Virus record (IMG/VR): IMGVR_UViG_3300025133_007152
Span: 1-25,536 of that record
Direction: 5' to 3' (one strand)
Length of the DNA stretch: 25,536 bases
Source of the DNA: a virus
The position numbers and the translations under genes are program-made. Shown piece by piece: positions 2,720 to 25,341 of this stretch (positions are counted from its first letter, which is position 1; the number at the start of each line of letters is the position of its first letter). Under the pieces are notes generated by a model. The model had not been told where the DNA came from. It was given only the letters and a program-made list of their open reading frames with translations, and searched no databases.

Positions 2720-3262
2720 TTAATTCTCCCAATATTCATTAAGGTCTGTTTCTAATTGTGTTATGTAAAGTTTTACTTTACCCTTTTCTTTTCCCAACTC
2801 TTTAGATAAAGCATTGAGATTGATAGAACCATTAGGCTTAATTAGCTTTGGGTTCTGATGTATTGCATCTACAATATCACGACATTCTTCAACTAAATCG
2901 GAATCCTCAAACATAATAGATGATGTATCAAGATGGCACATCTCAGCATCTATAAGTTCTTCTTCTAAAGTTACTTTATTCTGCAATACTTTCTTCTTAG
3001 TAATTGTTGAACCTTTATTATTCTTACAATTCCATAATACTGTTTTTAGATATTTATCAAATCCTGTTGTATCAACAAAATCTGTAAACTTCATAGCTAC
3101 ATTTTTACGATACGCATTAACTGCGTCCATACAAGCTATACTTAAATCTTGGTAACTATCTTCAACACTATTTGTAATATTATCTCCACCAATTCGATGT
3201 GCAATATGGTATAATAGCTTTCCGTATCTACTTTTTAAGATATTCCACTCTTCTTCACTCAT
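2720..3262 (-). CDS. Sigma-70 region-2-like protein, possible phage sigma factor
   Basis: This is a 180-residue protein. Residues 11-85 look like sigma region 2: a helix with LLYHIAHRI, then EDSYQDLSIACMDAVNAY (compare the ED-x-x-QE-x-x-x-x-L-x-x-A pattern), then FDKYLKTVLWNCKNN in place of region 2.3-2.4. Near the C-terminus INLNALSKELGKEKGKVKLY resembles a helix-turn-helix. The size is close to T4 gp55-type late sigma factors (about 185 residues). If correct, it would direct host RNA polymerase to phage promoters, and TATAAATA-like boxes do exist in this window. The start is coupled by an 8-base overlap with the upstream gene. Resemblance is by pattern only. A generic phage HTH protein remains possible. 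Confidence 0.5.
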   Translation of the reverse strand: MSEEEWNILKSRYGKLLYHIAHRIGGDNITNSVEDSYQDLSIACMDAVNAYRKNVAMKFTDFVDTTGFDKYLKTVLWNCKNNKGSTITKKKVLQNKVTLEEELIDAEMCHLDTSSIMFEDSDLVEECRDIVDAIHQNPKLIKPNGSINLNALSKELGKEKGKVKLYITQLETDLNEYWEN

Positions 3263-3581: not shown

Positions 3582-3721
3582 TTTTTGTTTACCTTCTTTT
3601 CTAGTAATAAAAGTGCTTCTTTTAATTGTTTAGCATCTTTAGGGAATGTGAAATCTTTAGCACCTGTATTATACTCAATAAGTATTTTTAATGCTTTGGC
3701 GTGTTCTTTATTAAGATACAT
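3578..3721 (-). CDS. Tiny helical protein, 47 residues
   Basis: From the ATG at 3721 a 47-residue frame starts MYLNKEHAKALKILIEYN and ends EALLLLEKKVNKK before TGA (ATGA overlap with the next gene). The start lies 11 bases inside the 3' end of the upstream gene. Junctions on both sides match operon neighbours. It is predicted as two amphipathic helices with a basic C-terminus. No family recognised. Confidence 0.6.
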   Translation of the reverse strand: MYLNKEHAKALKILIEYNTGAKDFTFPKDAKQLKEALLLLEKKVNKK

Positions 3722-4463
3722 ATGCTTGTCCTCCTAATTCTAAGAATAAGTTTGCTGTTTTAGAAACTTTAATATCGCCTATTGTTTTATGATTATGCTT
3801 ATCTAATAATTCAAGTGTGCTTTTACACTCTCGAATACTATTACACTTTCTGACATTATCACTATGTAAGTTTAATATCTCATTCATTATACGAGTAAAC
3901 TCAAGCCTTTCAGATATAAGATGTGTAGTATAAACTTCTAACTTAAAGTAATCACTTCGAGATATCATACCCTCACTATACCTATCAATTCTTCTAAACT
4001 CAGCTTTACTAGATGAAGATATACAAGTCTTACCACGCTCTTTCATATAGAAAAGAATATCAAGTGCTTGTATTGCTTTGTTAGTTGTAGGGGTGTTACC
4101 ATTACGTCTATATCCATAAGAATTACGCTCTTGAGAATGATTTCTATTATCATATAAATCGTTAGTATTTTTATTCTCAAAAGTATATTTTTTAGGTTCA
4201 ATACTATCGTATTGATTTCTTTCTAAGTTAATAGCGTAAAATGTTTGGATACAATCCAACATAAATTGAGTAGTAATATAAAGTGATTTACCTTTAAATA
4301 CAATTTTACCCTCATTATCATCTACGATAAAAACAGACTCTATATTTTCATCTTCTATGTAATTATCTTTTGCAATAGCATTTGCAAAGGCGAACAAAGG
4401 TAGGGTAGGGCATTTATCGTAATTAACGAGTTTAGTGGATTTCTTTTTAGCGAATTTGCTCAT
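3711..4463 (-). CDS. Protein of unknown function downstream of VWA gene
   Basis: This 250-residue soluble protein has a basic N-terminus (MSKFAKKKSTKLVNYDKCP). A beta-like region follows (ESVFIVDDNEGKIVFKGKSL), then a polar Asn/Arg-rich linker around residues 95-125, and a C-terminal helical part with Cys-containing segments (NVRKCNSIRECKSTLELLDK). It overlaps the VWA gene by 4 bases and so belongs to the AAA+/VWA operon. It may be an accessory or substrate of that machine, inferred from position only. No family recognised. Confidence 0.65.
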   Translation of the reverse strand: MSKFAKKKSTKLVNYDKCPTLPLFAFANAIAKDNYIEDENIESVFIVDDNEGKIVFKGKSLYITTQFMLDCIQTFYAINLERNQYDSIEPKKYTFENKNTNDLYDNRNHSQERNSYGYRRNGNTPTTNKAIQALDILFYMKERGKTCISSSSKAEFRRIDRYSEGMISRSDYFKLEVYTTHLISERLEFTRIMNEILNLHSDNVRKCNSIRECKSTLELLDKHNHKTIGDIKVSKTANLFLELGGQAYVS

Positions 4464-5380
4464 GTGATTGATTTATTAAAGATTTTGATTAGTGTGTCGA
4501 ACATTGGAGTTATAAAATCTCCATCTGTTCCAATTAAGTTGTTTCCGTAAACTTGTTTAGCTTCAGGAGTTTCTTCTCCATCAATATACAAAGTTACATT
4601 TTCAGTATGTCGTAAGTATTTCTCACGCATTTGTTGAGTAAACTCATTCCCAATACTAACATTGTTAATCATTGAATAAGTATCTCCGTCGGTTAAGTTG
4701 AATACAACAACATTTTTAGTTGTAACATTTTTCTTAATCCAATTAAATAGTGCAGGTAAAACTGCATATTCTGGTGTGGAACTTCCTATACCCTCTCTAC
4801 CTCCATCATCTCGCTTTCTAATAATGGGAGACATAGTATCGAGTTGCAAGATACGGTTTACGTCCATTTTCTTTCTAGTGTTTGTAAACACTCTAGTCAG
4901 AGCAGGAAATGCGCCTTTCATACCTAGTATATTAGAATCTGAAATATCAGCACTTGTCTTAGTGAAGACTTCTAATTTAATTGCATTATTAGTTACTCTA
5001 TCAACTGATTTTGCAAAAGCAGATACAACAGCATTACAAGCCTGTAATTGAGATATTCTATATCCCTCTGTTCCTAAGTTAATATTAACAGTTCCGTCCA
5101 TACTTCCACTAGCATCAATTAACATTACAATAGTAGTGTCTGATGTAGGGATATTATTATGTTTAGTAAAGACGTTATCATTAAAAGGAGTTTGGTATAG
5201 CCTACGAGAACATAGTTTACCTTTAGTTGAATAGGATTTACGAGGTCGTTTGCTTTCTAAAAGGAGGTTAATCTTTTTAGAAAACATCTGTTCCATAATG
5301 TCTCTAGCATTTACAACATTACTAGAGACATTCTCCCTATAAATACTTTCCGAACTTAATACAAAGTTATTTTTTGCCAT
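4460..5380 (-). CDS. CobT C-terminal-like VWA domain protein
   Basis: The protein is 306 residues. After an N-terminal helical region, residues 54-62 (GKLCSRRLY) match the GxLxxRRLx element that precedes the VWA domain in CobT. The MIDAS motif is D89-A-S91-G-S93 within VMLIDASGSM. A later Thr in GIGSSTPEYAVL and the VVFNLTDGD strand complete the metal site pattern. In the CobN-CobS-CobT chelatase and in MoxR/VWA systems this domain is the adaptor worked by the AAA+ ring, binding divalent metal to grip a client. Here the AAA+ partner is 2 kb upstream in the same operon. The chelatase large subunit is absent, so a generic remodelling role is more likely than cobalamin synthesis. Confidence 0.8.
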   Translation of the reverse strand: MAKNNFVLSSESIYRENVSSNVVNARDIMEQMFSKKINLLLESKRPRKSYSTKGKLCSRRLYQTPFNDNVFTKHNNIPTSDTTIVMLIDASGSMDGTVNINLGTEGYRISQLQACNAVVSAFAKSVDRVTNNAIKLEVFTKTSADISDSNILGMKGAFPALTRVFTNTRKKMDVNRILQLDTMSPIIRKRDDGGREGIGSSTPEYAVLPALFNWIKKNVTTKNVVVFNLTDGDTYSMINNVSIGNEFTQQMREKYLRHTENVTLYIDGEETPEAKQVYGNNLIGTDGDFITPMFDTLIKIFNKSIT

Positions 5381-6127
5381 TTAATTGTTATCCTCTACCA
5401 TTGATTTAACAACTACTTTACCATGAATATCTACGCCTAATTCCATTTCCATATCATAAGAAACTGACCCACAGGCACACTCATTGTGTATTTGATTTTC
5501 ATGTAATGTCATTTCAAATTGTTGTGTTTTACAAACCTCAGAACAATTATCACTATGCTTTATAAACGATTGTTTAAGAGTATCTGATGTTGCTATATCG
5601 TGAGACATTTCTGATTTTGCTATATTAACTGCATTACTTGAAGTAAAATCTTCTCCATAAGTAAAACCTTTCTCAATTAAGTATTTAATTGCTAAATCAA
5701 TTTGTTCTACATCATTATCTGCTAAAACTATATTAGAAGAATGTCGAGAGTTTTCTCTAGCTTCCGCGACTTCTCTTTTAACTGTATGAATATCACTCAT
5801 CTCATTAAAATATGAACTTAGCAAAGTTCCTTTATTCGAGGCACGATGAAAGTATTTACTTTCCTTACTATTACTACCAAAGATGTTATTCACAGCTTGG
5901 ATAATAAATTGCATAACCTTATCCTGTTGGCGCGATAAAGGTCTATACACATCTGTTGTATAAGTATTTAATTCTGACTCATACGCATCTATCTGTTCGT
6001 CTGTAACATTAGCGAGAAAAGAAGTATCTAACTTCTCACAATTTTGTAAAGGAGAATTTAGTGTTGGTCTAACTGAAAACTTAGTATTAAACAATTCATC
6101 AGTTGTTTTTGGTTGCGATTGTGGCAT
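5381..6127 (-). CDS. Cys/His-cluster protein within the AAA+/VWA operon
   Basis: This 248-residue soluble protein is not recognised as a family member. The N-terminal 180 residues are polar and helical, with an Arg/Glu-rich stretch (VKREVAEARENSRHS). Residues 190-220 carry a dense potential metal site: H191, C195, C199, then H209, H214, C217 and C219 (segments HSDNCSEVC and HENQIHNECACG). The final 25 residues look beta-rich. It directly abuts the VWA gene and follows the metallopeptidase-like gene, so it probably works with that module. Zinc or other metal binding is inferred from the residue pattern. Confidence 0.65.
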   Translation of the reverse strand: MPQSQPKTTDELFNTKFSVRPTLNSPLQNCEKLDTSFLANVTDEQIDAYESELNTYTTDVYRPLSRQQDKVMQFIIQAVNNIFGSNSKESKYFHRASNKGTLLSSYFNEMSDIHTVKREVAEARENSRHSSNIVLADNDVEQIDLAIKYLIEKGFTYGEDFTSSNAVNIAKSEMSHDIATSDTLKQSFIKHSDNCSEVCKTQQFEMTLHENQIHNECACGSVSYDMEMELGVDIHGKVVVKSMVEDNN

Positions 6128-6158
6128 TTGTAATTATTATTTAGGTTATTGGGTTTTA

Positions 6159-7370
6159 TTAAGCGCAGTCATCATAAACTACACATGAGTATTCGATAAA
6201 GTCTTTATCACTACGATAATTATTTATCAATTCTTCTGTTGTGGTATGGATTTTAACTTTACCCATAACATCTATACTATCAGCTAATGTTGGAGTTATT
6301 GGAATATATTGTGGTTCATATTTTTCCATAAACTCAACCATAGCTTCATTTTCTTCTGTATTATTTTTCTCTGTAGATGATTTAACAAACTCACTTTCAG
6401 GAATTTCACAACCATCGCTTAAATTATAATCAGAATTATCATCATTTTGTGTTTCCAAAAGTTCGTCTAGGTTTCCACCTTTAGAACTCTCAGTTGGCAT
6501 ATCTTGGTTATCGTATTCTGCAAGAACGGAATCTCTAATTTCATTTTTGTAAATATCAAATATAACAGGGATATATTCAAGAGGAGTAGAATCTAACAGG
6601 TCAGTTAAATTAGGATAAGTTGAATCTATGTAATCATCATGGAGAAAATCCTTATGATGAAACAAGAACTTATATCCTGTATTTTCAATGTTACGTTCTT
6701 CAAACTTACCCTCATTATACTTTTCTATAAAATAAGGTGCGTGTAACGCATCTCCTTTATCAACATACTTCTTTAAGTTTGGCTGTGCCATACTGTCAAT
6801 TCTAACATCTTCAACACAGTTTAACAACATAGCTAAACCTTTAATAGATTTTAGATAGAAGTTTTCATGCGCAGTTGGCTGAGCCTTTCCATCATATATC
6901 TTTCTCAATTCAACCATTCCGATTGTTTTATGAGATTGTATAACTTCGTAAAGACTTTCCCAACCCTCATCATCATTTCCTACATAAGTATTTTTCAATA
7001 CTTTGTTTACCATGTAGAAACATATTTCTGATATTTCAGAACCTTTTAATGATAATTTAAGGTGGTGTAACTCATGAATCATTAAGCCAATAGTATGGTC
7101 TAACTCTCCTTGTAGTAATGTTGAAGTTGGAATAAACACAACACCTTTATCAGTATCGGCACAAGCAGATGCGTCAAGAGATGTTGGATATTCAACTTTT
7201 ACATTAGTAGAAGGAACAATGATACTAGCGTAATGTGAAATTAACTGTTGTAGGTCATACAAAGTCTTTTCATCTATTGAATCTAAATCTTCTTCTAACC
7301 ATGCTTTGAGATAATCAGCATTTAAGTCTGTTATCTCAAAACTTTCGATTTCAGTAATAGGATTAAGCAT
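6159..7370 (-). CDS. CobT N-terminal-like protein with HExxH metallopeptidase motif
   Basis: The protein is 403 residues. H99-E100-L-H-H103 (MIHELHHLKL) is a complete HExxH zinc motif in a helix, and N184-x-x-E187-D188-x-R190 (LLNCVEDVRID) could supply the third ligand. That second motif also resembles the 'EDxRxE' helix of CobT-type proteins, whose N-terminal part is linked to a VWA domain. Residues 290-350 are an acidic, low-complexity linker (for example TQNDDNSDYNLSDG), as in CobT. The VWA part appears as a separate gene (4460-5380). Either a VWA-associated putative metallopeptidase or a degenerate CobT-like scaffold is possible, but the conserved HExxH favours real metal binding. It follows the AAA+ gene with one base between. 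Confidence 0.7.
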   Translation of the reverse strand: MLNPITEIESFEITDLNADYLKAWLEEDLDSIDEKTLYDLQQLISHYASIIVPSTNVKVEYPTSLDASACADTDKGVVFIPTSTLLQGELDHTIGLMIHELHHLKLSLKGSEISEICFYMVNKVLKNTYVGNDDEGWESLYEVIQSHKTIGMVELRKIYDGKAQPTAHENFYLKSIKGLAMLLNCVEDVRIDSMAQPNLKKYVDKGDALHAPYFIEKYNEGKFEERNIENTGYKFLFHHKDFLHDDYIDSTYPNLTDLLDSTPLEYIPVIFDIYKNEIRDSVLAEYDNQDMPTESSKGGNLDELLETQNDDNSDYNLSDGCEIPESEFVKSSTEKNNTEENEAMVEFMEKYEPQYIPITPTLADSIDVMGKVKIHTTTEELINNYRSDKDFIEYSCVVYDDCA

Positions 7371-7371
7371 T

Positions 7372-8187
7372 CTAGTTCTTAAAAGTGATTCCTACACTAT
7401 CTGCGTATTCACGAATAATAGATGCGTCTGATATAATGCTAGAACTATCAGTTTGGTATATTGATAGAATAACATTCTCAAGAATTTGTCCAATTGTAAA
7501 CTTAGAAACTAAAGGAACAACATCAAGAATCATACGAGTAGAAAGTGCTGTGCCAATCTTGCTTTTCTTCATCATCTTATGTGTATATCCATAAACTTGA
7601 GAAAGTGGTTTCATTTGGTCAGCGATTTCTTTACCATGCAATTTCTTAATGTAACCATTTAATTGCGTAGGTGTGATATAAGGAATGTTGAAACATAGAA
7701 AACGGTCTTGTAAAGCGCGGTCAATACTACGAGTAGCTGAGTATTCTAATCCTACGTTTGCAGTTGCTACAAATTTAACATTATCAGCAACTTTTACCAT
7801 TCTATCTTCATCACGTTCTTCAACACGAATGTCTGCGCGGAAATCCAATAATGGGAATAAGATGTTTAGTGCGTCGTCTGATGCTCTTGATAATTCATCT
7901 AGTATAACCATAGTATTTGGTTCTTGGATAGCTTTTAGTAAATCACTTTCTTGAAATACTGTATCGCCATTCTTTAGAGTGAAATATCCAATTAGCGCAG
8001 AACGAGCGTCTTGTGTAGAACCACAATTTATTACGACAGGATTAAGATTTAATTCTTCTGCCATTTCCAATGCGAAAGTTGTTTTTCCACAACCTGTTCC
8101 ACCTGTGAGAAGAACGTTTTTTCCTGTTTCGACAAGTGCTTTACAGATGTCTGATTTTGTTTTTTCAATTACGAAGTTAGATGTCAT
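7372..8187 (-). CDS. MoxR/CobS-type AAA+ ATPase
   Basis: The 271-residue protein has all the ATPase motifs: Walker A at residues 29-36 (GGTGCGKT), Walker B VILDELSRA (D97, E98), a sensor-1 Asn in FVATANVG, and an arginine finger in RALQDRF. The compact AAA+ core with this 'DELSRA' signature is typical of MoxR/NorQ/CobS-like ATPases, which act as rings with VWA-domain partners. Such cobS-like genes occur in several large phages. The partner VWA gene lies in the same operon. The start at 8187 has no clear Shine-Dalgarno but follows an extended -10 promoter about 50 bases upstream. Likely function is ATP-driven remodelling of a client held by the VWA protein. Confidence 0.85.
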   Translation of the reverse strand: MTSNFVIEKTKSDICKALVETGKNVLLTGGTGCGKTTFALEMAEELNLNPVVINCGSTQDARSALIGYFTLKNGDTVFQESDLLKAIQEPNTMVILDELSRASDDALNILFPLLDFRADIRVEERDEDRMVKVADNVKFVATANVGLEYSATRSIDRALQDRFLCFNIPYITPTQLNGYIKKLHGKEIADQMKPLSQVYGYTHKMMKKSKIGTALSTRMILDVVPLVSKFTIGQILENVILSIYQTDSSSIISDASIIREYADSVGITFKN

Positions 8188-8370: not shown

Positions 8371-8691
8371 CTAACTGTTCTTCAAGAAGTATCTTACTCG
8401 TGATTGCTTAAAAGACTTAAATGAAGTTTTAGCATTACGAGATGAAGAAATCGCTTTTGATTCTTTATCAGCCAATGGAATATTTAAGTTCTGAACTTTA
8501 CTCCATGTCTTTTCAAGAGCATTGATTTGACGAGTTGTCATTTCGGAAATATCAAATCCTCGTAGAGAGTTTTGATTTTGCGCTGTTACTAATACTTTCC
8601 GATTACTTTCACTTCCGTTTGCACGATAACGGAAAGCACGAGGATACATAGGAGTTGAACGCTTTGTTGATTTAGTTTGGGTTTTAGCCAT
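8371..8691 (-). CDS. Small, strongly basic protein, possibly nucleic-acid-binding
   Basis: The 106-residue protein starts MAKTQTKSTKRSTPMYPRAF and is rich in Lys, Arg and Ser throughout, ending with the basic FKQSRVRYFLKNS. The middle has a predicted helix (EMTTRQINALEKTWSKVQNL). There is no TM. The composition suggests DNA or RNA binding, or a virion internal protein, which is inference only. It is monocistronic, with a structured leader upstream (8731-8841) and a terminator downstream (8326-8349), unlike nearly all neighbours. No Shine-Dalgarno is visible before the ATG; the leader there is AT-rich (AATAATAATAACAAC). Confidence 0.65.
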   Translation of the reverse strand: MAKTQTKSTKRSTPMYPRAFRYRANGSESNRKVLVTAQNQNSLRGFDISEMTTRQINALEKTWSKVQNLNIPLADKESKAISSSRNAKTSFKSFKQSRVRYFLKNS

Positions 8692-12459: not shown

Positions 12460-13185
12460 CTAATTCAATGAACAATCTATTGGATAATTATATCCTAATT
12501 TTACGTCTTTATGGGAAATAATATTAATTTCTGGATAATCTTCTTTAGCCAAGCTCTCTAATGACTTGCGCTTAGTCCCGATATGGATAACACCTTTACG
12601 TTTTAAAGCTTTTACGATCTTAGGGGCTATAATATCAACCCAATCTTTGGAAGTATAAATATCTTCAAATACAGCTTGTAAATGCTTTTTCGTAGGTCCC
12701 CAAGTCCCTCTTTTACAGAATGAAGTTCTAATAATCAGATCAGTAGGAAGCATAAAAGCTTCACCTGCTAACTTAGACCAGCCATAAAATGTCCCAGGGT
12801 TAGGTTTAGATTTAATCGTATAACCCCCTTCAGTTCCTTCATATACATAATCTGTTGAAATATATACGATTTTAGTCTTTCTGGGTTGCCATTTCGCAGC
12901 TACTCTCATATTCATAGTACCGTAAATATTTGTTTCAATTACCGCTACTTTGTTTTTAGGTTTTTCAGCGCCTTTAACGTCTGTCCAAGCAGCACAGTGA
13001 AGAATACAATCAAATCTTTTTTCGTCTTTTAAATACTCACTCACCCCAATAATATCCTCTACTGGAAATTCTTCGTGAGTTGGTGCGAATATTTTATATC
13101 CGGCTTCCTTTAATAAGGGTAGGAGAGTTGAACCAAGCGTCCCAGACCCTCCAGTTAGTAATATTGTTTTAATTTCTCGATTCAC
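12460..13185 (-). CDS. rmlD: RmlD-like dTDP-4-dehydrorhamnose reductase, short
   Basis: The protein is 241 residues. An N-terminal Rossmann motif TGGSGTLGS (residues 11-19), a YISTDYVYEG strand and the catalytic YGWSK (Tyr/Lys pair) identify an extended short-chain dehydrogenase. The RmlD type is indicated by the STDYVYxG motif and the KPNPGTFYGWSKLAGE segment. It is shorter than typical RmlD (about 290), with a reduced C-terminal substrate domain. It reduces dTDP-4-dehydro-L-rhamnose to dTDP-L-rhamnose with NAD(P)H. It overlaps rmlB by 17 bases, and rmlA lies just upstream, giving the pathway context. A related reductase with another product cannot be excluded. Confidence 0.75.
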   Translation of the reverse strand: MNREIKTILLTGGSGTLGSTLLPLLKEAGYKIFAPTHEEFPVEDIIGVSEYLKDEKRFDCILHCAAWTDVKGAEKPKNKVAVIETNIYGTMNMRVAAKWQPRKTKIVYISTDYVYEGTEGGYTIKSKPNPGTFYGWSKLAGEAFMLPTDLIIRTSFCKRGTWGPTKKHLQAVFEDIYTSKDWVDIIAPKIVKALKRKGVIHIGTKRKSLESLAKEDYPEINIISHKDVKLGYNYPIDCSLN

Positions 13186-14107
13186 TCTGTAAAAATGCTT
13201 CTAAAGGTGTAAAGATTTTGTCTCCTTGATAAGCTTTTAGCTTCTTACAATCTAATGCGTATTTTTTATCATGTCCCAGTCTGTCTGCTACATATTCAAT
13301 ATTCGCGGGGATACCTAAAACTTCGGAGATCTTTTCGATTACTTCTATATTAGTATATGCAAATCCTGAACCAATATTATAAGTCTCAGAATTATAGTGG
13401 GAATGCATGAGGTCTAGCATTATCCTTACATGGTCATCCGTATGAATCCATTCTCTAATTTGCAGCCCATCACCATACACTGGGATAGGTTTGTTGTTTT
13501 TCATAGCTTCAAACACAGTAGGGAGGAATTTCTCAGCGTGTTGCCCAGGTCCAAAGTTATTACAACATCTAGTAATTAAATATGGTAAATCAAAGGTTCT
13601 ATGTGCTGATAAAACTAACATTTCCGCAGCAGCTTTAGAAGCTGAATAATAAGAAGATGGTTTTAAATTAAAGGACTCTGTAGCTTCAGGGGAGCCATTA
13701 AGATCTTCCATATCCCCGTAAACTTCGTCTGTAGAGACTTGTACAAATTTACGAAATATGTTCTTAGGCTGCTTTTTTGCTATTTCAAGTAGATTGAACA
13801 CCCCTTCGATATTTGATCGAACGAATGGTCTACCATCAGATATAGAATTATCCACATGAGACTCAGCGGCAAAATTAACAATGTAACTAAGAGGAGGCAG
13901 GTCAGTAGAGGTAATATCGCAAATATCGCCAACAACCAAATTAAAACGTTTTTCATCTTTTTTTATATATTTAGGGATTCTATCACTATCAGCCGCGTAT
14001 GTAAGTTTATCTAATACGGTGATGTTATAGTCAGTGGCATCGTAAATATGCCTAACAAATCGGGAACCTATAAATCCAGCCCCGCCAGTAATTAAAATGT
14101 TTTTCAT
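13169..14107 (-). CDS. rmlB: dTDP-glucose 4,6-dehydratase
   Basis: The protein is 312 residues. NAD-binding TGGAGFIGS at residues 7-15, the catalytic STDEVYGD motif (Thr-Asp-Glu) and YSASKAA (Tyr/Lys) are all intact, with CNNFGPGQ and a C-terminal GHDKKYALD motif as in RmlB. It converts dTDP-glucose to dTDP-4-dehydro-6-deoxyglucose, the common intermediate for rhamnose and other deoxysugars. It is somewhat shorter than bacterial homologs (about 350) at the C-terminus. It follows rmlA by a one-base overlap (TAATG) and precedes rmlD, so the three form one coupled unit. Confidence 0.9.
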   Translation of the reverse strand: MKNILITGGAGFIGSRFVRHIYDATDYNITVLDKLTYAADSDRIPKYIKKDEKRFNLVVGDICDITSTDLPPLSYIVNFAAESHVDNSISDGRPFVRSNIEGVFNLLEIAKKQPKNIFRKFVQVSTDEVYGDMEDLNGSPEATESFNLKPSSYYSASKAAAEMLVLSAHRTFDLPYLITRCCNNFGPGQHAEKFLPTVFEAMKNNKPIPVYGDGLQIREWIHTDDHVRIMLDLMHSHYNSETYNIGSGFAYTNIEVIEKISEVLGIPANIEYVADRLGHDKKYALDCKKLKAYQGDKIFTPLEAFLQSESRN

Positions 14108-15204: not shown

Positions 15205-16461
15205 TTATATTTCTTCTACAAGGAGTTCCCCCTGTTGGAATTTAGGCTTGAATTTCTTAGCTTCAGAGCCATTTAGGATTTTATCAGCGAGTTTTAGTGT
15301 TACATTTTGCTTTATATAGCGCTTTATATTCCTCGCCCCATACTCAGGCGAGTATGCATTATCTACTACGTGAGATACCAGTTTTTTAGTAATTTTTATG
15401 GGTAAATTACGTAAATTTAGTTTTGTGATGTTTTCTGCGTCTTCTCTAGTTAATTGGTTAAAGAAAATTACCTCATCAATGCGATTAATAAACTCTGGGG
15501 AGAACTCTCTTTTGAAAGCGTCCATTATATTCTCTCTAACCCCTTTATAAGTACTTACCTTACTATCGAACCCTACAGTCTTTATTCCCACGTTATCATG
15601 GATACCCACATTACTTGTGAAGAGAAAAATTGAATTTGTGAAATCTAATAAATTACCTTTGTTATCAGTGATTTTACCATCATCTAGAAATCCAAGTAAC
15701 AAATTATGAAGCTTTGTATCGGCCTTTTCAATTTCATCAAATAAGATTACCCATTCTGAAGATTCCTCAGCTTTGCTAGCTAAGATACCAGGCTCATTAG
15801 AGCCCACATAACCCGGGGGGCTTCCGATTAATTTAGCGTATTCATGGGGTCCTGCATATTCGGAACAATTAATTTTTAAAATCTTCTGGGGGCTTCCCAT
15901 GTAATGTTCAGCTATAAGGTTTGCTATATGAGTTTTACCTACTCCGGTAGGTCCAATAAAAAATGCAGAACCAAAGCTCTCAAATCCAGAATTCACTAGT
16001 TTAAACATATTAAACATTTTCTCAACCGCATTTTCTTGACCTATTAAATCCTTTTCTATATTTTTACGGATTCTTTGCAAATCTACCATATTATAGTTGG
16101 AAGATTCATTTACACTCTTAATTATATCTTTTGGGGATACTGAAGACCCCTCTTCCGCCAAATAATTAAAATGCATACACGCGGATTCGATAGTTAGTAT
16201 AGGGTAAACTTCAACTACACATGAGTATAAAGATTCTGATAATAAATTAGAATTACCATGGACTTTAACTAGTTTCTCGTACTCATGGACTAAAGATTTA
16301 CAAATGAATTCTGTAAACTCCTCAATACTATAATTGGTATCCGAAAGTTTATTATCCAGAGTAGCGAATATTAAATCGATTTCCCCTTTTTCAATTTTGC
16401 GGACTTTAACAAAACAGTCTAGTGCTTGACTGTAGGTAACGAAGTATTTTTGTTCACTCAT
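15205..16461 (-). CDS. Clp/Hsp100-type AAA+ unfoldase with ClpP-docking loop
   Basis: This is a 418-residue protein with one AAA+ module (from about residue 138) most like the D2 ring of ClpA/B/C. It has Walker A GPTGVGKT (170-177), the pore loop SPPGYVGSNEPG (GYVG 217-220), Walker B ILFDEIEKA, sensor TSN (282-284), V-G-F at 296-298 and NRID (Arg finger 327). VGF lies where ClpC carries its ClpP-binding V-G-F and ClpA its I-G-L, so docking to a ClpP protease is predicted. The first 135 residues show no standard Clp N-domain and probably select substrates. No ClpP is encoded in the window, so host ClpP is the likely partner. The start follows a CTATAATATA box, without a Shine-Dalgarno. Confidence 0.85.
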   Translation of the reverse strand: MSEQKYFVTYSQALDCFVKVRKIEKGEIDLIFATLDNKLSDTNYSIEEFTEFICKSLVHEYEKLVKVHGNSNLLSESLYSCVVEVYPILTIESACMHFNYLAEEGSSVSPKDIIKSVNESSNYNMVDLQRIRKNIEKDLIGQENAVEKMFNMFKLVNSGFESFGSAFFIGPTGVGKTHIANLIAEHYMGSPQKILKINCSEYAGPHEYAKLIGSPPGYVGSNEPGILASKAEESSEWVILFDEIEKADTKLHNLLLGFLDDGKITDNKGNLLDFTNSIFLFTSNVGIHDNVGIKTVGFDSKVSTYKGVRENIMDAFKREFSPEFINRIDEVIFFNQLTREDAENITKLNLRNLPIKITKKLVSHVVDNAYSPEYGARNIKRYIKQNVTLKLADKILNGSEAKKFKPKFQQGELLVEEI

Positions 16462-18051: not shown

Positions 18052-18515
18052 TTGTTCTCAGGTTTCCACCAATCTTTGTCTACGAAATCTGTATAGCTAG
18101 CCCTTTCTTCATCTGGATTTTGGGGATCATACTTACAGGTAACAAAATATAGAAGCCCGCAAGATTCATCCCCTATAGGGGTTAGTCCGTGCCATTCTCC
18201 CGCATCAATTCTTACTACACAAGGATTATGCTCCCCTATAAAGAATTTTTCAGCTCTTTTAGTCTTAGGGTTATAAACTCCTACTTGAGCCATACCCTTC
18301 ACTATGCAGAAATAGTCATCTTGGCATTTGTGACGATGCCAGGCTTTAATTATCCCAGGATTTACTACCGAATAGTTTATTTGAAAGCTGTTACACTGCT
18401 TACAATGGGGAGATACTCCCTTCACGCTTCCTATCACAAAATCGGCATTTGCGTAAATATCGTTTAAACTCCAACCCCTGGAATCAGCGAACTTGTCTAA
18501 TTTAAATATTTTCAT
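18048..18515 (-). CDS. RmlC-like dTDP-sugar epimerase (cupin)
   Basis: This is a 155-residue cupin. The N-terminus has D-S-R-G-W (residues 11-15), as in RmlC. NPGIIKAWHRH carries the catalytic-type His near residue 62, and IDAGEWHGL and YDPQNPDEER near the end match the RmlC layout (the latter like YxPxxER). It would epimerise C3/C5 of dTDP-4-dehydro-6-deoxyglucose, supplying the missing step of the rhamnose pathway encoded by rmlA, rmlB and rmlD 3-5 kb away. It is shorter than RmlC (about 180), and a related ketoisomerase (QdtA/FdtA-like) or WxcM-like role is possible. It overlaps the RecA-like gene by 14 bases. Confidence 0.65.
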   Translation of the reverse strand: MKIFKLDKFADSRGWSLNDIYANADFVIGSVKGVSPHCKQCNSFQINYSVVNPGIIKAWHRHKCQDDYFCIVKGMAQVGVYNPKTKRAEKFFIGEHNPCVVRIDAGEWHGLTPIGDESCGLLYFVTCKYDPQNPDEERASYTDFVDKDWWKPENK

Positions 18516-19476
18516 TTTTCTTTAACCCCTCTGCTATTTTAGAATCTAAATCTCCTTTGCGATGCTTTGTAGCGCCTTCATCAAGAGAAAACCAGCCTGG
18601 AGTAGGTTTAGAAGCTTTACCATCTTTATAATATTGCTCTGTAAGCCCATACTCTGATACTATACCTTCATCATATAAAAGCTTAAATTCACATGATTGG
18701 AAAGGCTTGGTAATTTTATTCTTAACAGCCTTTAATGTACCTGTAATACCTAGTGGGTTTTTACGCTCATCAAACATTTGGTCGCTTTTACCTGATGCGG
18801 TCTCTAATGAAGTACCGCAATAATATAGAAGTGCTTTTCCCCCTCCTGCTCTAGTACGAGGGTCCCCGAACATTACTCCGACTTTACTTCTAACTTGATT
18901 GATAATGATTAATCCCGCCTTGTATTTACGTAATAGAGGGTTAATTCTCCTCAAACATTGACCTGCTACTTTAGCCCTAAGAGCTCCACCCATCTCTGAA
19001 TTCTTACCGAAATCATCGTCCATTTCCTTTTTTGTGGGGGATGTTCCAATGGAATCATACCCAATCATAATAGGAGTATCTTTATCCTTCTTACGAATAG
19101 CTTTAATAACCTTTTCAATAGTTTCAAAGCAATCTTCTAAAGATTCTGGGTTGGTGTAAATTAGCTTTTTGGAGTCAAGTCCAAGTTTTTCGGCGAAGGA
19201 TGGTGAGTAAGCATGTTCGTTATCCACCATAACAGTGTGGAACCCTTCTCGTTGAGCTCCGATGAACGCGTGTGTAAGAAACACCGTCTTTGCGCTCGAG
19301 CTCTCTCCGTAGATCTCTGTAATCGAACCGATGGGGTAACCGCCATTATAATCTCCTGAAATAATTTTATTAAGGGCATATGAGCCCGAGTCTACGTATC
19401 CGTAGATTTTGCTTTCATCAGCTAAGATGGCAGCATTATCAAGTTGTTTACATATATCGTCTAAGAATGATGTCAT
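18502..19476 (-). CDS. RecA/UvsX-like recombinase
   Basis: The protein is 324 residues. Walker A lies at residues 57-64 as GESSSAKT, with Ala in place of the usual Gly before Lys-Thr, similar in spirit to the altered loop of T4 UvsX. The Walker B-like strand IMIGYDSIGTS, LIIINQVRSKVG (with the terminal Gln of the RecA L1/L2 region) and RAGGGKALLYY follow in family order. It catalyses ATP-dependent strand exchange and supports phage recombination and replication. Length fits phage RecA (320-390). It is preceded by a CTATAATATA box and overlaps the RmlC-like gene. Confidence 0.9.
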   Translation of the reverse strand: MTSFLDDICKQLDNAAILADESKIYGYVDSGSYALNKIISGDYNGGYPIGSITEIYGESSSAKTVFLTHAFIGAQREGFHTVMVDNEHAYSPSFAEKLGLDSKKLIYTNPESLEDCFETIEKVIKAIRKKDKDTPIMIGYDSIGTSPTKKEMDDDFGKNSEMGGALRAKVAGQCLRRINPLLRKYKAGLIIINQVRSKVGVMFGDPRTRAGGGKALLYYCGTSLETASGKSDQMFDERKNPLGITGTLKAVKNKITKPFQSCEFKLLYDEGIVSEYGLTEQYYKDGKASKPTPGWFSLDEGATKHRKGDLDSKIAEGLKKNENI

Positions 19477-19478
19477 AC

Positions 19479-19488
19479 TATATTATAG
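19479..19488 (-). promoter_or_regulatory. CTATAATATA box before the recombinase gene
   Basis: The minus strand reads CTATAATATAGTATG with ATG at 19476. Its first bases also encode the end of the upstream HAD gene (CTA TAA = Leu, stop), so the element is part coding. AAAAGGA precedes it by one base but is 12 or more bases from the ATG. The repeated motif at four loci suggests function. Coincidence of AT-rich stop/start junctions is the alternative. Confidence 0.35.
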
Positions 19489-19833
19489 TCCTTTTTTGGA
19501 ATTTTGAAGGAAGGGTCCTTTATTATTTTCCCAATCACGAGAATTTAAAACTTTATCATCTATGAAAATATCAAAATGAGGCTTGTCTAGTTTAAGTTGC
19601 TGGTATTTACATCCCCAAGTTGAAAGTTGAGTTTCTGTCAATTTAGTATGGTCTATCCCGGACACAGCTCCTCGAGCGGTCCAGTAAATTATCGTATGTC
19701 CGTTTTCATATAATTCGTTAACTCGTTTAATATTTTCCATTAAAGGTAGCGCGAGAGAGTAATCAGGAATCTCCCCTGAAGTTGTCTCCTTGTAAAAGCA
19801 AATAGTATCGTCTATATCCACATAAATAATCAT
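19483..19833 (-). CDS. HAD-superfamily phosphatase-like protein
   Basis: This is a 116-residue protein. The N-terminal VDIDDTI motif (D6-x-D8-x-T) is the HAD nucleophile/acid pair, WTARG is the second motif, and FIDDKVLN holds the acidic metal-binding site. Small HADs of this type are frequent in capsule and LPS gene clusters, where they dephosphorylate sugar phosphates. It overlaps the sialyltransferase-like gene by 4 bases and is thus likely part of the glycan pathway, possibly acting on a nonulosonate or heptose intermediate. Confidence 0.8.
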   Translation of the reverse strand: MIIYVDIDDTICFYKETTSGEIPDYSLALPLMENIKRVNELYENGHTIIYWTARGAVSGIDHTKLTETQLSTWGCKYQQLKLDKPHFDIFIDDKVLNSRDWENNKGPFLQNSKKGL

Positions 19834-20519
19834 GGTAACTTAGGGATTAGTACTTCATTCCCCTCCATTTGAAAAGACGTAAAAGGGTTAAGGGAGTAGA
19901 TATTAGTATTGTAAACCTCTAAAAGTTTTTCTTTTACTTGTATAGTATGGGGTGCCATTCTCTCTATAAATTTAAAGTACTCAGACTTAAAATCTTGCGA
20001 AGATGTAGTATTTAAAGCAGTTACTTCTTTTGAATTTTCATAATAGCCTTTAAACGTATAATTATTATTAACTAACCCACAATCATGACCGCACAGTATA
20101 ATATTCTTAGCGCCCATATACGCCGCTATATGCATTGCACTTGTAATAGTACTATAACTTACTATAATCTTATCACTATTCTTTTGTATTGTATGTAATA
20201 ATGGTTCTTGATTGGGTTTGTCGGGATGCTCAAAAATCCAGTAATCTCCATGTAGTGAATTTTCTCGTTGCCAAGTATCCCCACAATTATGCTTAGATAT
20301 TATTAGTTTAGCGTTTTTCGTATCCACTTTAGAAAAACCGATAGAATCTTTACTTACAATATAAGAACAATCGTATTTCATAGAAACTCTGTTTAATCCT
20401 ATAGTAATTTTCCCCTCGAAGAATGAAGGATCTATAAAGTCCATCGAAGCCCCAGCCCCGATAATCCAAATATCAGCACTTTTATGAATATCTTTAAATT
20501 CTTTAATTGATTTTTTCAT
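19830..20519 (-). CDS. MptE/DUF115- or GT42-like transferase
   Basis: This 229-residue protein begins with a Rossmann-like IWIIGAGASMDFIDPS, comparable to the GxGPSL motif of MptE-like (DUF115) proteins and GT42 sialyltransferases (Cst type). A central TITSAMHIAAYMGAKNIILC followed by GHDCG resembles the second donor-binding half of those families (TSG-x-x-M...L-x-G-x-D). Given a NeuA/NeuB pair three genes upstream, transfer of a CMP-activated nonulosonic acid is the most attractive reading. A motility-accessory-factor-like glycosyltransferase is the alternative. No TM segments. The substrate is not shown. Confidence 0.55.
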   Translation of the reverse strand: MKKSIKEFKDIHKSADIWIIGAGASMDFIDPSFFEGKITIGLNRVSMKYDCSYIVSKDSIGFSKVDTKNAKLIISKHNCGDTWQRENSLHGDYWIFEHPDKPNQEPLLHTIQKNSDKIIVSYSTITSAMHIAAYMGAKNIILCGHDCGLVNNNYTFKGYYENSKEVTALNTTSSQDFKSEYFKFIERMAPHTIQVKEKLLEVYNTNIYSLNPFTSFQMEGNEVLIPKLP

Positions 20520-23598: not shown

Positions 23599-24194
23599 CG
23601 GTGTTCCCCTAAAATTTTGGGGATATATTTTACATTGTATTTGTTGGCAAAATATGGATACATAACTCCATCACTTTGCTCTCTTTTATCTTTCCAGCCT
23701 TCCTCAGATCTCCATAATAAGGTTTTCATTACTAACTGCACACAATCTATATTTCCATACACTGCAGGATTACCGGTAAGGGTAACGCTTTTAGATATAT
23801 CTCTGGGGGTTGAATAGAACCTAACACCTTTAGACTCTTCCATCCCTATCATTTTAATCGAAAAAACTTGCAAAGGGTCATTATTTTTTTGCAATTCTTC
23901 TAAGGCATCTGAGTATAATATATTATCAGGGTTAAAGTGTATAATATATTCCCCTTTAGCTTCTTGAATACCTAAATCCCGTAAACTATGTCCCCAATCA
24001 TTGTATCTCTTATCTGTACATTTTACCGGAATTGGAAATTCAACTGAATCATCTAAAAGGGGTCCATCGTGGTAGCATAGGATTTCAAAATCTTGGCAAG
24101 TTTGATTTTGTAAACTTTCAATCCCTTCAAGAAATCTCTCGTGTGAAATCACTCCTTGGTAATGAGGAACTATAATGGTAAACTTAGGATTCAT
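23595..24194 (-). CDS. Family 2 glycosyltransferase
   Basis: This is a 199-residue protein with a GT-A fold. FTIIVPHYQGV is the nucleotide-binding start, LQNQTCQDFEILCYHDGP is the conserved second strand, GHSLRDLGIQEAKGEYIIHF precedes NPDN, which takes the place of the DxD motif. No TM segments are seen. It probably transfers a hexose in the surface glycan assembled by this cassette. It overlaps the GT4 gene by 11 bases and NeuA by 4. Donor and acceptor are unknown. The DxD-like element is only partly conserved. Confidence 0.8.
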   Translation of the reverse strand: MNPKFTIIVPHYQGVISHERFLEGIESLQNQTCQDFEILCYHDGPLLDDSVEFPIPVKCTDKRYNDWGHSLRDLGIQEAKGEYIIHFNPDNILYSDALEELQKNNDPLQVFSIKMIGMEESKGVRFYSTPRDISKSVTLTGNPAVYGNIDCVQLVMKTLLWRSEEGWKDKREQSDGVMYPYFANKYNVKYIPKILGEHR

Positions 24195-25341
24195 TTTTAT
24201 TTAAAAGTTGTTTATATAAATCCAACCTAAGGTGTACCACCTTGTTTATATTATAACGTTCATCTACGATTTTTTTCAAATTTCTTCCCATTTCTCTTGC
24301 GTGTTTAGGATCTTTTACACATTTAGAAATAGCTTTAGTCCAATCCGATCTTTTATTTTCTTTGGATATAAGATATCCAGTTACTCCGTCTTTAATAATT
24401 TCGTCGTATGCGCCACAATCAGTAGCAATAAGAGGAATGCCATAACGCCCAGCTTCCATAAGTTTAATTTCAGATTTTGAATCATTAAAGTTGTTCCATT
24501 CTAAGGGTGCGATAGCTACATCAATGTTAAGATACATAGATCCATACCTATCAGTAGGCATAGCTTGGTATACAGCCCAATTTTTATGCTTTTGGGGTCC
24601 TACTAAGATACGGGTATACTCATCCCATACTTTCTGTTGCCAATCCTCAGGTCCTTCGTCCCCTAAAGGAGGTCTACCGTAAAACCCCCATCTAATATTC
24701 TCAGGACCTACTTTAGCATTTACACTAATACCCAGCCCTGGTACTTGTTTAACATCTTGCTCATGGTGGATACCCCCTACCCATCCAATCTTACATGGTT
24801 CCTTTTTGGAAGTTCTATAGTTTTTCGCTAGGTTCCAACAAGGTAAATCAAAATCAATAGCGTTTTTAATTACGGCTAAAGTCCCCCGAACATTTTTTTC
24901 GATACGTTTAGCAAATTTTGCTTGAGTTACTGTAACTAAGTCTGCATTATAATATAATGTTGAGGTAAGTTCACTTAAATCTCTTTCTTTGTAAACTTCA
25001 AACAATCTATGCCCTGGATAAATCTCTGTAAGAAGGTCATCGGTATCGTAATGGATAAAGCAACGGTTTTCTTTTGCTTGTTTAAAAAGCTCAATCATGA
25101 AGTGAGGTCCGAAATTAGAAATATTCTGAGTCATCATAATATCACACCAATCCATATCTTCATGAGTTTCAGCTGACGTATTAGACGTAGGGTTCCAATT
25201 TAAAGGATTTTTGTTGAACCTAATTTCTACTTCATCGCTGCAATATTGTAGAAGTTTCTCAAAAGGCATAATTGCTCTATAATAGCTACAACCGCCGTCA
25301 TTGGCAGGAACTACTAATATCTTTAATTTATCTTTACTCAT
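24184..25341 (-). CDS. Family 4-like glycosyltransferase
   Basis: This is a 385-residue protein with a GT-B fold. The N-terminal KILVVPANDGGCSYYR is the first beta/loop. Then come HYDTDDLLTE, IGWVGGIHHEQD (start of the donor domain) and the C-terminal E-x7-E-type motif in KLMEAGRYGIPLIATDCGAYD with GVTGYLI. It probably adds a sugar to a glycan or lipid carrier. Its start at 25341 overlaps an upstream frame by 8 bases (ATGAGTAA), and no Shine-Dalgarno is visible. Confidence 0.85.
   Translation of the reverse strand: MSKDKLKILVVPANDGGCSYYRAIMPFEKLLQYCSDEVEIRFNKNPLNWNPTSNTSAETHEDMDWCDIMMTQNISNFGPHFMIELFKQAKENRCFIHYDTDDLLTEIYPGHRLFEVYKERDLSELTSTLYYNADLVTVTQAKFAKRIEKNVRGTLAVIKNAIDFDLPCWNLAKNYRTSKKEPCKIGWVGGIHHEQDVKQVPGLGISVNAKVGPENIRWGFYGRPPLGDEGPEDWQQKVWDEYTRILVGPQKHKNWAVYQAMPTDRYGSMYLNIDVAIAPLEWNNFNDSKSEIKLMEAGRYGIPLIATDCGAYDEIIKDGVTGYLISKENKRSDWTKAISKCVKDPKHAREMGRNLKKIVDERYNINKVVHLRLDLYKQLLNKNES

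Follow-up and report, generated by a model that had tools for sequence, protein, structure and literature searches.

A split-gene CobS/CobT-like module with a candidate metallopeptidase subunit in a group of tailed phages

The window analyzed here is the entire 25,536-base IMG/VR virus record IMGVR_UViG_3300025133_007152, and our subject is a module of four minus-strand genes within it (8187-4460) that encode, in order of transcription, a MoxR/CobS-type AAA+ ATPase, a protein with an HExxH motif (PEP), a protein with clustered Cys and His residues (CH) and a protein with a VWA domain. The first-pass annotation had described four adjacent genes carrying these motifs, and open reading frames were found at exactly the positions listed below. 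The intergenic gaps are 1 (AAA+/PEP), 31 (PEP/CH) and 0 bases (CH/VWA), a spacing that suggests the four genes are co-transcribed, and the next gene (3711-4463) overlaps the VWA gene by 4 bases. Upstream of the module lie a hairpin with a run of U (9126-9100) and a site resembling a promoter (11 of 12 matches, 8871-8844), which could mark the start of the unit, although this region has hardly more such sites than expected by chance. The genes and motifs of the module are as follows.

7372-8187, minus strand: MoxR/CobS-type AAA+ ATPase, 271 aa, with AAA_5 and PHROG 249 matches
8077-8103, minus strand: Walker A of the AAA+ protein
7882-7908, minus strand: Walker B of the AAA+ protein
7750-7773, minus strand: sensor 1 of the AAA+ protein
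7699-7722, minus strand: arginine-finger region of the AAA+ protein
6159-7370, minus strand: PEP, CobT N-terminal-like protein and candidate gluzincin-like metallopeptidase, 403 aa
7062-7076, minus strand: HExxH of PEP (HELHH, residues 99-103)
6795-6821, minus strand: NCVEDVRID of PEP (residues 184-192), with candidate third ligand E187
5381-6127, minus strand: CH, putative accessory protein, mostly helical, 248 aa
5843-5878, minus strand: conserved core of CH, G-x2-SK-x2-KY-x2-R
5468-5557, minus strand: Cys/His cluster of CH, 7 in 30 residues, in some members only and of low model confidence
4460-5380, minus strand: VWA protein, homologous to the C-terminal part of CobT-like proteins, 306 aa
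5198-5224, minus strand: CobT-like pre-VWA motif in the VWA protein
5099-5116, minus strand: metal ion-dependent adhesion site (MIDAS) of the VWA protein, with its Thr within 4766-4783 and its Asp within 4682-4696

Profile searches assigned the two outer genes of the module. The AAA+ protein matched Pfam AAA_5 (E 4e-18) and PHROG 249, the phage CobS family labeled "porphyrin biosynthesis" (E 2e-28), in agreement with the MoxR/CobS-type identity given to it earlier, and its solved relatives in the PDB are midasin, NorQ, CbbQ and CobS. The VWA protein had a weak match (E 8e-6) to PHROG 459, a phage CobT-like "peptidase" family. The full MIDAS read from its sequence in the first-pass annotation was borne out, as D89-x-S-x-S, T202 and D231 are all present and are invariant among its relatives.

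The same was true of the HExxH and candidate third ligand reported for PEP. Both motifs (HExxH at residues 99-103 and N-x2-EDVRID at residues 184-192) are present, and in shuffles of the PEP sequence HExxH alone appeared in 3.5% and both motifs together in 0.01%. Eight residues (H99, E100, H103, N184, E187, D188, I191, and D192) are invariant among the aligned PEPs of the related contigs described below, so that the conservation of E100, the catalytic Glu of the HExxH, equals that of the metal ligands. The AlphaFold2 model of PEP (mean pLDDT, the per-residue confidence score, 82.7; pTM, the predicted template modeling score, 0.81) placed the HExxH in a helix formed by residues 90-106 and the E187 motif in the helix that follows (residues 167-193), and in this arrangement E187 would be the third metal ligand. 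An acidic stretch at about residues 290-340 was modeled with low confidence. The leading Foldseek/VIA matches of the model were minigluzincins, followed by leukotriene A4 hydrolase (LTA4H) and the M1 aminopeptidases, all of which are HExxH-Glu enzymes. We treat a gluzincin-like fold of PEP as a lead; only its agreement with the HExxH-Glu motif lends it weight. Searches of PEP against Pfam, PHROG and NCBIfam profiles gave no meaningful match, and a PDB sequence search with the PEP profile gave no match.

Scans with PEP and the AAA+ protein identified 20 further contigs, which together with the window form a group of 21, hereafter the split group, that includes some pairs of near-copies. A conserved gene order in other phages had been put forward as a check on the module, and the order AAA+, PEP, CH, VWA was kept in every contig found, with PEP and VWA as separate genes throughout. 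The complete four-gene set was present in 17 of the 21 contigs (16 and the window); the other four end inside the set. The identity of PEP to that of the window falls to about 25% among these relatives, which points to an arrangement of some age. A maximum-likelihood tree of the AAA+ (CobS) proteins placed the split group, including the window, on one side of a branch with support of 100/98, although this tree is unrooted and does not by itself prove the direction of splitting or fusion. Three related records that carry the module also had a terminase match, indicating that these uncultivated viruses are tailed phages and, together with the origin of the window as an IMG/VR virus record, upholding the earlier view of the window as phage DNA. 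No close relative was found among the phage records compared with the window, tblastn of the PEP and VWA proteins against 50,697 phage records gave no match, and no split-form relative was found in the prokaryote genomes searched.

Tracing the AAA+ protein led to phages that encode a single protein of 600-800 aa with an HExxH near residue 100, N-x2-ED-x2-I downstream and a C-terminal VWA domain. The genes for this fused protein and the AAA+ protein are neighbors in LR756508 and in Bacteroides phage BS162P1, and some 13 kb separates them in Microcystis phage Mel-JY01. An alignment-based scan of IMG/VR gave 80 loci, most of which, outside the split group, hold the fused protein near the AAA+ gene; in all, about 60 non-split viral contigs had one fused CobT-like protein (HExxH...ED...VWA) near CobS. 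Profile-profile comparison aligned PEP to columns 85-290 of the fused family, in the N-terminal part, with 95.5% probability and the VWA protein to columns 475-727, in the C-terminal part, with 98.2% probability. CH mapped nowhere on this family (0.2% probability). These alignments gave substance to the proposal that the CobT architecture has been divided into separate genes, and indicated that PEP and the VWA protein together correspond to one CobT-like protein to which CH was added. Since the fused state is that of bacterial CobT and of all other viral relatives found, fission in the split group would be the simpler reading of these sequences. As for the fission point, a global alignment ended PEP just before the VWA part, and the tail of PEP alone had no significant similarity.

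The metal-site residues are retained to a similar degree in the fused proteins. Among 57 distinct fused viral proteins with a median pairwise identity of 38%, the Glu and second His of the HExxH and the downstream ED pair were present in all 57 and the first His in 56, the lone exception coming from a record that starts inside the gene. The metal-site signature is thus conserved in the N-terminal half of both the split and the fused viral proteins, which is where it had been placed within CobT from the window alone. In Thermus phage P23-45 (6594-8282), a similarly sized VWA protein is encoded after the AAA+ gene; our scan found in it no HExxH with a downstream ED, so it may lack or have lost the protease site. 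Four contigs of metagenome-assembled genomes, labeled Nitrosopelagicus, Wolfebacteria, Flavobacteriaceae and Eubacteriales (L117, L118, L119 and L120), encode relatives of the viral fused type and are probably viral sequence in bins. In addition, about 950 plasmid records, mostly of Klebsiella, Escherichia and Acinetobacter, have a CobT-like VWA gene, often annotated as porphyrin or cobalamin biosynthesis; many of those listed are near 110 kb, and these plasmids look like phage-plasmids.

For CH, the count of seven Cys and His residues in 30 was correct, and such a cluster was seen in 0.8% of shuffles. The interpretation of CH as a metal module of CobT was not supported, both because CH does not map to the fused family and because the cluster is not conserved. 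The CxxC/Cx3C...CxC pattern was found in approximately half of the full-length members (window, L003, L006, L097, L098 and L101), was missing or incomplete in others (L017, L018, L057, L104 and L107), and the segment bearing it was absent from L105, L108, L110 and L111; six contigs have a short form of CH, 129-132 aa, without the Cys/His segment. The conserved part of the protein is instead an N-terminal helical domain with the motif G-x2-SK-x2-KY-x2-R, and the model of CH (pLDDT 69, pTM 0.42) is confident in the helical part only. CH matched no known profile, and the searches made with it gave no known relatives. Its top structural match was UvsY of T4 (Z 6.3), but profile comparison gave this pairing 0.1% probability and we rejected it; a search for the UvsY family in the related records found no match, as did the same search in control genomes. 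We consider CH to be a putative clade-specific helical accessory, encoded by an extra gene and not part of CobT.

The neighbors of the module are recombination, nucleotide-sugar and regulatory genes. Two nearby genes have counterparts in relatives, an association only in both cases.

2720-3262, minus strand: sigma-70 region 2-like protein, with a homologue downstream of the module in relatives
8371-8691, minus strand: 106-aa protein, with its gene immediately ahead of the AAA+ gene in the closest relatives and elsewhere in others

In all relatives with contigs long enough to show it, the sigma-like gene comes after the module, either close by or one to two kilobases off. We rejected it as a general neighbor of such modules, as the sigma profile found nothing beside the fused ones. 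In Rhizobium phage V1VFA-S, a sigma-70 gene stands right after the CobT-like gene and the gene adjacent to it. Elsewhere in the window, a second AAA protein (15205-16461, minus strand) belongs to PHROG 4871, which is ATP-dependent protease-like; L102 has a homologue some kilobases upstream of its module, and L100, L103 and L104 each gave a weaker AAA match to a protein of comparable size. A UvsX-like recombinase (18502-19476, minus strand) also has a counterpart upstream of the module in L102. A sugar-modification cassette (12460-14107, 19483-20519 and 24184-25341, minus strand) comprises a nucleotide-sugar epimerase pair, phosphoheptose isomerase-like and sialyltransferase-like genes and a glycosyltransferase.

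Several known systems resemble the module. Group 2.2 jumbo phages have a MoxR-VWA pair with an N-terminal metallopeptidase, for which a role in virion assembly with proteolysis was proposed (PMC7824862). The module shares with it the same three domains in adjacent genes, an HExxH peptidase region that precedes the VWA domain, and the same proposed working as an ATP-driven chaperone pair with proteolysis. By the published description, the jumbo-phage peptidase and VWA domain form one protein, whereas here, on a single branch of other tailed phages, they are two genes with a gene of a third family between them. The viral CobS/CobT pair (PHROG 249 and 459) is similar in that both families were matched here and the AAA+ gene precedes the CobT-like one. 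These viral proteins have been annotated as cobalamin genes, namely as cobaltochelatase subunits that use the CobN of the host, and their peptidase annotation was called mistaken (PMC8651126). The same study reported that cobT of HHTV-2 is split, with the vWA domain in a separate open reading frame; the module differs from the viral pair by the extra gene between the halves, and no CobN was found in the 13 records searched. The fused version and one split case were already known; within what was tested here, the novelty lies in a fixed set of four genes that includes an extra family.

Outside viruses, the CobS-CobT pair of cobaltochelatase (with solved structures, e.g., 9uka and 9ujv) shares with the module an AAA+ partner, an acidic linker, a VWA domain with a MIDAS and, in the CobT N-domain, a similar E-x2-R-[IV]-E motif. 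Unlike the proteins here, bacterial CobT is one chain and has DSMALR, DAFALR and the like in place of the HExxH. The motif was absent from all six bacterial CobTs readable at the site (Shinella, Sinorhizobium, Sphingomonas, Cereibacter, Pandoraea and Caballeronia), which keep the acidic residue of the second motif; CobT of Methylobacterium, unreadable at the site, and that of Burkholderia, which begins after it, were left out of this count. Five more chelatase-like phage CobTs were compared, and four have the HExxH, which is lost in Pseudomonas phage nickie. The NorQ-NorD system is likewise an ATP-driven remodeler in which a MoxR ring works with a VWA partner that keeps DxSxS-T-D, but it is a cofactor-insertion chaperone without a peptidase (PMC9976466). 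The minigluzincins (abylysin, jannalysin and selecase) have the closest fold to the PEP model (Z about 6), with an HExxH and a downstream Glu, but are much smaller than PEP, have no VWA domain and share 10-19% identity with it in structural alignment. Among the minigluzincin-like proteases Wss1/Spartan, Wss1 partners with the AAA+ protein Cdc48 (PMC4559962), a parallel in mode of action and not in descent; Cdc48 is of another AAA+ family than that of the module.

The homology of three of the four genes, their conserved order, and the invariant residues of the metal site and MIDAS point to a split-gene phage CobS/CobT-like (MoxR AAA+, VWA, metallopeptidase) system. We consider it somewhat likelier than otherwise that this system is an AAA+/VWA remodeling complex with a detachable metalloprotease subunit; the remodeling or cleavage of a client is what we infer from the sequences. 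In such a complex, the AAA+ protein would form an ATP-driven ring that supplies force. The VWA protein would be an adaptor that docks on the ring and holds the client through the MIDAS metal, by analogy to NorD, which was modeled plugging the MoxR ring of NorQ and whose MIDAS is needed for the target and not for ring binding (PMC9976466). PEP would be a separate gluzincin-like metalloprotease, recruited non-covalently where in other phages it is covalently tied to the VWA domain, that clips the remodeled client during infection, and CH could perhaps bridge the protease and the VWA protein. The leading candidates for the client would be a protein bound to nucleic acid or, in line with the proposal for the fused form (PMC7824862), one of the virion.

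Several points weigh against this proposal. A virion role gains no support from position, given the recombination, nucleotide-sugar and regulatory genes around the module and the tens of kilobases between module and terminase in the records that contain both. The fold matches of PEP are weak, with Foldseek E values of at least 0.3 (none passes 0.001) and Z of at most 6.1, a value in the range that the tool calls possibly a common arrangement. In addition, the PEP site may hold a structural metal instead of hydrolyzing peptides.

The leading alternative is that the complex is a MoxR-VWA chaperone without proteolysis whose sole task is to remodel or assemble a protein of the phage or host, PEP being a client-recognition or scaffold domain with a structural metal. 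Most characterized MoxR-VWA pairs are indeed protease-free chaperones, such as NorQ-NorD (PMC9976466; overview in PMC7159879), and the N-domain of cobaltochelatase CobT has lost the HExxH and is still part of a working machine, showing that the fold can serve without catalysis. However, a purely structural site would not need E100, which is as invariant as the metal ligands, and we regard this explanation as rather unlikely.

We consider it improbable that the proteins are auxiliary cobalamin enzymes, acting as CobS and CobT with the CobN of the host and raising B12 for B12-dependent nucleotide reduction, despite several observations that fit. Viral CobST have been proposed as B12-supply genes (PMC8651126), and the module proteins have homology to both CobS and CobT. 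Five of 13 split-group records (L112-L116) encode a large-subunit ribonucleotide reductase of one type, the two reductases scanned pass the cut-off for class II (the adenosylcobalamin-dependent NrdJ), and a class I small subunit was found in none of 16 split-group records. Conversely, CobN was found in none of 13 split-group records, although these are fragments, which makes such absences soft. Records of the fused group had a class I small subunit in 13 of 46 cases and passed the class II cut-off in one. Viral CobTs were also seen in phages that infect Vibrio cholerae, E. coli and Klebsiella, hosts not known to use CobNST. Finally, the six bacterial CobTs have no HExxH at the place where the viral proteins keep it, and the retention of HExxH-Glu in viruses together with its loss in bacterial CobT favors a metallopeptidase of the kind proposed for jumbo phages (PMC7824862) over a cobalamin enzyme.

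That the genes form a phage-borne conflict module, directed against the host or a competitor in the manner of the MoxR-vWA ternary systems of multicellular bacteria, is very improbable: MoxR-vWA pairs are the cores of proposed conflict systems (PMC7159879), but PADLOC matched none of the three partner proteins and the AAA+ protein only by generic P-loop matches, and the module, unlike cargo genes, is a constant feature of a divergent phage group and keeps a conserved neighborhood.

We suggest, tentatively and with less confidence than for the module itself, that viral "CobT" proteins are active AAA+-assisted metalloproteases and not cobalamin enzymes, that the CobT of cobaltochelatase has lost the metal site, and that the protease of the split group is now a free subunit, open to exchange and coupled to the motor through a new clade-specific adaptor. 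Of the results of this study, the most useful is that viral and bacterial CobT differ in the HExxH. It is common practice to class viral cobS and cobT among the auxiliary metabolic genes for vitamin B12, and the near-perfect retention of HExxH-Glu in viruses against its absence in the six bacterial CobTs opens the way to a simple test of the alternative that they encode a protease machine. The split form would provide a handle for such work, in which the protease, the adaptor and the motor can be separately expressed, removed and recombined.

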